Below are positions 50,356-52,709 of a stretch of 55,401 nucleotides of DNA, one piece after another (the first letter of the stretch is position 1; each line of letters opens with the position of its first letter). Source of the DNA: Pirellulales bacterium (GTDB lineage Bacteria > Planctomycetota > Planctomycetia > Pirellulales > JAIMBC01). The notes below the pieces were generated by a model. It did not search any database. It saw nothing but the letters and a program-made list of their open reading frames with translations, and was not told where the DNA came from. A program made the translations under genes and the position numbers. The stretch lies in NCBI GenBank assembly GCA_023511675.1, contig JAIMBC010000004.1, positions 1 to 55,401 on the forward strand. Direction: 5' to 3'.

Positions 50356-51615
50356 TTAATCGTGCGCCTGGAGTTTCATGGGCACGTCGAGCCGTTTTCC
50401 GTCGCGGATCACATTCAAGGTAACGGTATCGCCCACCTCGTAGTTCAAGCGGATGTAGGCGTTGAACTGGAGCATGGTCATCTCGAGTTCTAGCCCGTTG
50501 ATGCCCACCACAATATCTCCGGCGCGCACGCCGGCGGCTGCGGCCTGAGGCGGAACATAGTCTCCCTGCCGGAACGCGAGACGGCTGGGTGCCAGACCTA
50601 GGGTGGCCTTCTGCTCGGCACTCAGGTCAGGCCCCCACACGCTGGCTCGCGGGGCGATTCCCCACATGGAACCGCGCCAGGAGATGTCTGACTTGCGCCA
50701 GCCCTCCTTGAGGGGCAGCTTGCCCTGCAGTTCGCGGCCGTCGCGCTGCCAGGCCAGTAGCATATGCTGGGCATCGGCCGGTGTGCGATGGAGGGCGTAT
50801 TGAAGATCGGCGTAGGAGGCGATGCTCATGGGTTCCGCCCCTTCGTCCGGCTTCACCCACAGCAGCCGATCTTGCGATTGCAAACCCGCCTCTGCCGCGG
50901 GGGATCCGGGCACGACCTGCTCCACCAGATCGCCTTGGTCCACCTCCATGATCAGACCCAAGTTCTCCGGCGGCGGATAGACCCACACGCGCTCTTTGCG
51001 CCAGTCTCCCTCGAAGGCCTCGCGACGGAAGTCGTACACCTGATGGCAATGGATGCAGTCGCCCTGCTTCAGACGCTGCGCAGCGCGGAATTGCTCGGGG
51101 CGGTCAGGCTCGTGAGAGGGGAGCGGGACCAGCTCCGCCGGGCGCCGAGGATGGCGCCGATGTGCTTCCAGTGCGCGCTGCATGGCATACTTCAGCCCGG
51201 CCAGGGAGAGATGGGCCTCGGCCTCCCCTTCATTGCGGCCACCGTAGCGCCCGTAGATGCCGCCCTGCGCATTCATGAAAAAGGCGGCCCAGGTGAGATC
51301 GTAATCAAAGTCGAACAGCCGCAGATCCACGCCGCGCATGTTGGTAATGCGCACCAGCACGAATTGCTCGGCCAGTTCTGCTATTTGCGGGTCCAGACGA
51401 ACGACCTGTTCGTCGAAGCCTTTGCAGTCCGGTCACCGTTCGCATCGGAAGACCACGAACAGTGCTTTGCCCGTCCGGCGCGCAATCTGCTGTCCCTCCT
51501 CATAGCTGGAGATCCAGGCTGCTTCTTCCGCCCCACCGCGCGCACCTGGGTGCCACCATACGGCTGCCACGCCCAACATGGCTCCGATCAAACAGACGCT
51601 TGACCGCCGCTTCAT
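50356..51615 (-). CDS. putative selenoprotein: thioredoxin-like, CXXCH and PDZ domains, in-frame TGA
   Basis: Read through one TGA (codon 61, 51433-51435), this is a 419-residue exported protein. Residues 1-27 form a signal peptide; 30-130 look like a thioredoxin-like domain (A-R-R-T-G-K-A-L-F-V-V-F-R-C-E-R-TGA-P-D-C-K-G-F-D); C187-I-H-C190-H191 is a CXXCH haem-binding motif; two PDZ-like domains follow (about 215-300 and 330-415; V-P-G-S-P-A-A-E-A-G-L and V-R-A-G-D-I-V-V-G-I-N-G). The frame before and after the TGA is the same, and the TGA falls between two Cys residues (C58, C64). An AGGUC-loop hairpin follows (51396-51414). AGGAG lies 7 bases before ATG 51615, which overlaps the sigma-factor stop. 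If the TGA is not decoded, this is a pseudogene: residues 1-60 only. Confidence 0.7.
51396..51414 (-). promoter_or_regulatory. putative bacterial SECIS hairpin
   Basis: On the minus strand GACGAAC (51414-51408) pairs perfectly with GTTCGTC (51402-51396) around the 5-base loop AGGTC (51407-51403). The stem starts 19 bases after the TGA, and the loop 26 bases after it. This falls in the range seen for bacterial SECIS elements, and AGGUC matches the loop of the E. coli fdhF SECIS. G is among the first two loop bases, another known requirement. Confidence 0.65.
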
Positions 51616-52178
51616 GCAACATCTCCTGCCCAATGGGCGCGCATGTGGCGCAAGGCCTTGTACTTGAGGTCGCTCACACGGGCCGCCGGCAGGTCCAGCC
51701 GCTCTGCGATCTGGGCCACGCTCCAGCCCTGGCTCCACAGCTCGATTACCTCGCGCTGCCGCGGCGGCAAGGCCTCCAAAGCCGCAGATACGGCTTCCTT
51801 GACTTCAGCCAGGCACACATCCGACTCTCCCGCCGCCGGCTGATGGCACAGCGAGACATGCGGCCTTGCCCGACGCCAACGCTGCACGGTGCTCCAAATC
51901 GAGCGATTCAACTCGCGCCGCTCCTCGGAAGCCGCCTCGCCGATGGCCAGCCCCAATCGCTCTCGGCCGATGCGGGCCAACAGCCGTGCAAACGCCTCTC
52001 CCGTACAATCCGGCCAGTCTTGAGGCGAGATGCCCGCGTTCCGCCAGCTTGCCGTGCAGTAACGCTCGATTTGACTGACGGCGGCAACCTCCCGCTGCTC
52101 CGCTTGGGGGCTTACGGCAAGGGCCACGGCCATGGCACAGGCCGCAGACACCCTCGTCGTATAACCGGTCTTGCTCAT
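51612..52178 (-). CDS. ECF-type sigma factor
   Basis: A 188-residue sigma-70 family factor. Residues about 40-110 resemble region 2 weakly (S-Q-I-E-R-Y-C-T-A-S-W, W-P-D-C-T-G-E-A-F-A-R-L-L). Region 4 is clear at the C-terminus: A-L-E-A-L-P-P-R-Q-R-E-V-I-E-L-W-S-Q-G-W-S-V-A-Q-I-A-E-R-L-D. A hydrophobic stretch near the N-terminus (A-A-C-A-M-A-V-A-L-A-V) is unusual for a sigma factor. ATG 52178 has GAGG upstream; an upstream in-frame start looks non-coding. Its stop overlaps the start of the selenoprotein candidate, suggesting that the sigma factor and that redox protein work together. No anti-sigma gene is seen. Confidence 0.8.
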   Translation of the reverse strand: MSKTGYTTRVSAACAMAVALAVSPQAEQREVAAVSQIERYCTASWRNAGISPQDWPDCTGEAFARLLARIGRERLGLAIGEAASEERRELNRSIWSTVQRWRRARPHVSLCHQPAAGESDVCLAEVKEAVSAALEALPPRQREVIELWSQGWSVAQIAERLDLPAARVSDLKYKALRHMRAHWAGDVA

Positions 52179-52709
52179 GATTACCTCGCTCTGGTATCCG
52201 CACCCCGCCTCTATCTTACCGCGGCAGCCGCATCGGCCAAGACACCGGCTGCTACCTTTGCCCATGAATCGACGCCAAGCCGGGCGGTTCTCGCCGCGGA
52301 CCGCCGCGCCTCCGTCGCTGAAGGCCAGCAGGTCGCCTGCGTTACACGTTTCTCGCCGTCTGAGTCGTGCACGGAGCGATCAGCCGTCACCTTTGGGCGG
52401 TGACCGACAGCCGCAGGGAGCCGAGGGACCATGGCCGCCGGCGCTGATCGCTGCTGCTCACCCTTTCCTTAACGCTGCCAGGGGAACAGAAAATGGCAGC
52501 CATCCGCAAGCCATGCGGCGCTCTCCGCCTGGGGGAACGACAGTGGGGAGCTGCCGGCTGTCAGGCGGGGCGGTGCTGCATCGGGCGCGCGGCTCGTTGG
52601 CTGATCCGCCCGGAACCTGCTCTCCCAGGCATGGCCGTATTGCACGCACGCCTTCACGAAGCTTACGATCAGTGCCGCTATGGCGGCGCTGCTGCTGTGA
52701 GTCGATCCC
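52179..52709. other. divergent intergenic region upstream of sigma-factor and VOC genes
   Basis: 531 bases between divergent genes. It should contain the sigma-factor promoter. Frames across it show no conserved features. I see no RNA gene or repeat. Confidence 0.4.

Follow-up and report, generated by a model that had tools for sequence, protein, structure and literature searches.

A predicted Trx7/PDZ selenoprotein of a Pirellulales bacterium and its relatives with selenocysteine or cysteine at the redox site

The minus strand of a 55,401-nucleotide stretch of DNA from a Pirellulales bacterium (the window, meaning the whole stretch analysed) carries a gene whose codon 61 is TGA. From comparative sequence evidence we conclude, with a probability of roughly 0.95, that this codon encodes selenocysteine (Sec) and that the gene is a real selenoprotein gene. 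A preliminary description of the window had proposed the same. This reading stood, with the Sec genes of the genome, an alignment column of Cys or Sec and a SECIS-like hairpin in its favor, while the suggested novelty did not; relatives with two Sec residues had gone unseen there.

Results

Reading frame and domain structure

The frame runs from an ATG at 51615, preceded at a distance of 7 nt by AGGAG, to a TAA ending at 50356 (50356-51615; all features given here are on the minus strand). The translation, starting with MKRRSS, contains TGA codon 61 (51433-51435) as the sole in-frame stop and comprises 419 residues when this is read through. The TGA is embedded in RCER-TGA-PDCKGF and is followed by 358 codons up to the TAA. 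The frame, the ribosome-binding motif and the position of the TGA as described previously were thus borne out.

A basic and hydrophobic stretch of about residues 1-30 (51526-51615) was recognized by eye as a probable export signal. Pfam placed a Thioredoxin_7 domain at residues 33-106 (PF13899; 51298-51519), followed by a pair of PDZ domains, which together with further comparison were assigned to approximately residues 225-300 and 326-415 (PF17820, PF13180; 50371-50943). The motif CIHCH at residues 187-191 (51043-51057) is a possible site of covalent heme c attachment. The thioredoxin-like, CXXCH and PDZ features named in the preliminary description could therefore all be located.

The upstream gene, which codes for a protein with a sigma-70 region 4 (51612-52265), stops at an ordinary TGA, its end sharing 4 nt with the selenoprotein start (ATGA). 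Because this neighbor terminates at TGA, the codon is not reassigned genome-wide, in agreement with the earlier remark that the code is not altered as a whole. The sigma-factor-like gene was not located beside relatives in any other fetched locus, many of which had short flanks, and the neighbors in the loci L047 and L048 were different. A conserved operon was rejected on these grounds. As judged from the sequences the gene itself is conserved beyond chance, with homologues in other orders and phyla keeping the frame on both sides and TGA or Cys at codon 61.

Family identity

The window protein scored 472.3 bits against NF041199, 'Trx7/PDZ domain-containing (seleno)protein', at a curated cut-off of 300, with residues 33-415 aligned to positions 2-390 of the 390 in the profile. 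In addition to the score above cut-off, Thioredoxin_7 followed by PDZ and a Cys/Sec redox column were found; by sequence the protein is a member of this already predicted family. The idea that the selenoprotein could be new to the literature gave way to this strong match, the family being mentioned in two reviews (PMC9312934, PMC13188914). There, in 2022 and 2026, it is given as a Thioredoxin_7/PDZ protein with a CxxU motif, with one Sec in the 2026 review, which traces NF041199 back to a paper of 2008 (PMC13188914). Among the papers searched, the 2026 review alone mentions NF041199. In the 2008 paper, the GOS survey, Zhang and Gladyshev predicted a 'putative secreted serine protease MucD' selenoprotein from two marine sequences, which has CxxU as well as a predicted SECIS (PMC2398784). 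Apparently, this MucD selenoprotein and NF041199 are one family that was first named differently.

The window protein shares the order of Trx7 and PDZ and the CxxU motif with NF041199 as portrayed in the later review, yet UxxU with two Sec residues was seen in many of the relatives collected here, instead of the CxxU with one Sec given there (PMC13188914). It likewise has CxxU and the predicted SECIS in common with the MucD selenoprotein (PMC2398784). However, the 2008 name derives from the similarity of the PDZ part to HtrA-type proteases, whereas our domain search gave no protease domain in the window protein. An HtrA/DegP (MucD) serine protease was consequently rejected, since the trypsin-like domain is absent and the PDZ part alone matches. 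The VPGUxxT thioredoxin-like selenoproteins (NF041382, NF041383) share the thioredoxin-like region around Sec in weak matches (E of about 0.001), but these cover only window residues 32-96, reach about 18 bits against cut-offs of 350 and 275, and the motifs are different. Redox proteins of the Thioredoxin_7 type, AGR2 among them, have the same thioredoxin-like domain by sequence, but lack Sec at the position of U61; AGR2 chains match only the thioredoxin part, without CxHCH or PDZ.

The active site and the CxHCH motif

The redox motif reads C58-E-R-U61-P-D-C64 (51424-51444). In alignments with ordinary Trx7 proteins from other genomes U61 corresponded to the first active-site Cys in all eight cases and C64 to the second or its equivalent; with AGR2, which has CPHS, U61 was opposite the Cys of CxxS. 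Taken together the two alignments indicate that U61-x-x-C64 is likely the canonical thioredoxin pair, the CxxC of thioredoxin, and that C58 is extra. Sec61 is therefore likely to sit at the position of the thioredoxin nucleophile; the preliminary description had placed the TGA where a redox residue of a thioredoxin-like fold is expected. C58 was kept even better than C64, with Cys or Sec in 90 of 90 against 86 of 90 members, and the four members without C64 retained both 58 and 61. Thus C58 may be the partner in some members. An AlphaFold model built from six sequences had a mean pLDDT of 73 and was of low confidence near residues 57-70, too weak to locate the active site on its own; the structures that matched it best were PDZ-bearing proteases with low TM-scores.

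CxHCH was present in all 90 aligned and in 71 of 71 further members. A search for the heme attachment machinery yielded a Cytochrom_C_asm protein in the source genome. That CxHCH carries a c-type heme is plausible from the motif. With the export signal recognized by eye the protein is likely an exported thiol/selenol redox protein.

Exchange of Sec and Cys

The search of relatives and GTDB genomes revealed homologues with TGA at exactly codon 61, including one MAG from the Gemmataceae and two with the label Poribacteria. Column 61 of the 90 aligned members was occupied by Cys (71) or TGA (19) and by nothing else, as the inspection of this column suggested at the outset should reveal for a Sec residue. 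Column 58 contained Cys in 83 and TGA in seven members, column 64 Cys in 86. In the members read through, neither TAA nor TAG was found inside the protein. A tree was computed with the redox and hairpin columns removed. The Sec/Cys label required five changes on it and a three-state label eight, so Sec and Cys were swapped several times. Three genomes had one Sec and one Cys copy each, L086/L100 (G129), L089/L106 (G144) and L087/L114 (G297).

The Sec machinery

The preliminary description had named selA, selB, selD and tRNA-Sec as the genes to look for, and all four were present in the source genome: tRNA-Sec with anticodon TCA (66 bits), selB (379 bits), selA on the same contig as selB (551 bits) and selD (277 bits). 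GC content and tetranucleotide composition of the contigs with the Sec genes were similar to those of the window, with correlations of 0.94-0.99 compared to 0.67-0.89 for stretches of other genomes, which makes a binning error unlikely.

The Trx7/PDZ family occurred in 80 of 397 genomes of the order. Among these, 14 of the 15 genomes that carry a TGA copy had a detectable selB, compared with 17 of the 63 that have only Cys copies (Fisher p of about 3e-6, uncorrected for kinship). tRNA-Sec and selA were each detected in 14 of the 15 TGA-bearing genomes, all of which have at least one component. One of them, G234, has tRNA-Sec, while selA and selB were undetected although the genome is 99% complete; its congener G355 has both. 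Another, G282, was without detectable tRNA-Sec. These missing components are possibly assembly gaps.

The SECIS-like hairpin

Bacterial SECIS elements are hairpins shortly past the UGA with a G within the first two loop positions. The window has such a structure, GACGAAC-AGGUC-GUUCGUC (51396-51414), with a conserved 7-bp stem beginning 18 nt past the TGA and the apical loop AGGUC 25 nt from the UGA. Seven pairs were formed in 19 of 20 TGA members and six in the remaining one, so that the hairpin said beforehand to be needed was found in 20 of 20 with at least six pairs; 72 Cys members formed 0-5 at the same place. When the TGA members were recoded synonymously, equal pairing arose in only roughly 1-4% of the trials, or in 17% with the six-pair member, hence the hairpin is unexplained by the protein sequence alone. 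The encoded peptide, D-x-Q-[VL]-[VA]-R, was fixed in Sec members and variable in Cys members. The covariation score and the percentage paired of the TGA members exceeded all 500 shuffles, but the changes were concentrated in two pairs and kin sequences can beat shuffles without a structure. For this reason the difference between TGA and Cys members is the stronger evidence. Folded alone, the hairpin of TGA members averaged -9.5 kcal/mol, with a range of -7.7 to -12.7, whereas Cys members averaged -2.0 at the corresponding place.

In a later set at the fixed place, at least six of seven pairs were seen in 33 of 48 TGA members and in none of the 23 Cys members. Among the remaining TGA members, several had a shorter or shifted hairpin with a loop of AGUU or similar; in L144, L146, L150, L152 and L190 a shifted hairpin has a 4-nt AGUU loop replacing the 5-nt loop. 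The window's own 45-nt stretch past the TGA did no better than shuffles in single-sequence folding, which preferred a rival fold, and an Rfam scan of the hairpin region gave no match. The hairpin is thus backed by comparison rather than by single-sequence energy.

A form with two Sec residues

A phylum-wide search covered 392 genomes. Among the 150 matches listed, 51 had no in-frame stop, 33 had one TGA, 65 two and one three, and all 166 in-frame stops were TGA, none TAA or TAG. From this list 48 TGA members were retrieved, 32 with UxxU and 16 with CxxU; in this sample of the phylum, members with two Sec residues accordingly outnumber those with one. The UxxU members belonged mostly to classes other than that of the window. 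Two TGAs three codons apart, usually followed by a third Cys, were seen in L048, L049, L050, L051, L091, L092 and L099 as well as in many of the phylum-wide matches. The candidate with three TGAs (G477) turned out on re-reading to have just a UxxU pair inside the protein, which leaves no triple-Sec member in the set. Two same-strand family copies lay close together on one contig in G672:C198, G511:C242, G681:C27 and G440:C255, suggesting tandem duplication.

The two-Sec UxxU form, common across the phylum, seems to be undescribed so far. In those portions of the family literature that were accessible we found neither this form nor Sec at the nucleophile position nor the invariant CxHCH; subscription papers and unpublished annotation may differ.

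Discussion

A nonsense mutation in a pseudogene or the miscall of a TGC or TGT codon might be suspected, as the source genome was read from a single assembly, fragmented into 422 contigs. Yet TGA occurs at the same codon in many separate assemblies of several families and in the MAGs labelled Poribacteria, it is accompanied by the hairpin, the remaining frame is conserved, and TAA and TAG are missing from the phylum-wide matches listed. For the family this comparison already refutes an error or a pseudogene, which we consider very improbable. Still less probable is that TGA is decoded, by reassignment or suppression, as a different amino acid such as Trp. Any readthrough would preserve the frame, but column 61 alternates with Cys alone, never with Trp, Arg or Gly, the genome has selA, selB, selD and a tRNA-Sec with the matching anticodon, and the neighboring gene stops at TGA.

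Sec readthrough depends on the supply of selenium, and the TGA could mainly be a selenium-dependent switch with a 60-residue peptide or a restart at GTG 51360 as the main product. This GTG does open an in-frame ORF of 334 codons. The restart product, however, would be devoid of the active site, most of the thioredoxin domain and the signal sequence, and conservation extends across the TGA; we regard a regulated truncation as highly unlikely, much like an error.

Thus we favor the view that codon 61 is read as Sec. SelB and Sec-tRNA-Sec would bind the hairpin 18 nt past the UGA and Sec would be inserted at residue 61. Sec61 would then act as nucleophile in U61-P-D-C64, a site of the thioredoxin type to which C58 would add one more thiol in a resolving or partner role. 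The exported protein may serve in thiol/selenol redox exchange outside the cytoplasm. A c-type heme is probably bound at CxHCH, or else the motif probably makes up a second redox or metal site; the two PDZ domains are likely to grip substrates or partners by their C-termini. Relatives presumably use the Cys versions for the same purpose, and their genomes often lack a Sec system. A more far-reaching and rather doubtful possibility is that the family forms a selenium redox relay outside the cytoplasm that is linked to heme, in which the commonest Sec form, U-x-x-U-x-x-C, would make a diselenide or selenenylsulfide and pass electrons to or from the c-type heme of CxHCH while the PDZ domains recruit partners; the window protein would be the single-Sec form.

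Standard gene calling ends the protein at residue 60 or restarts past the active site, and the redox centre is consequently missing from the annotation. The widespread two-Sec form would widen what reviews record for the Trx7/PDZ family. The family gives a clean natural experiment on how Sec and Cys replace each other, with five or more changes on the tree and an RNA hairpin that is present with Sec and gone with Cys.
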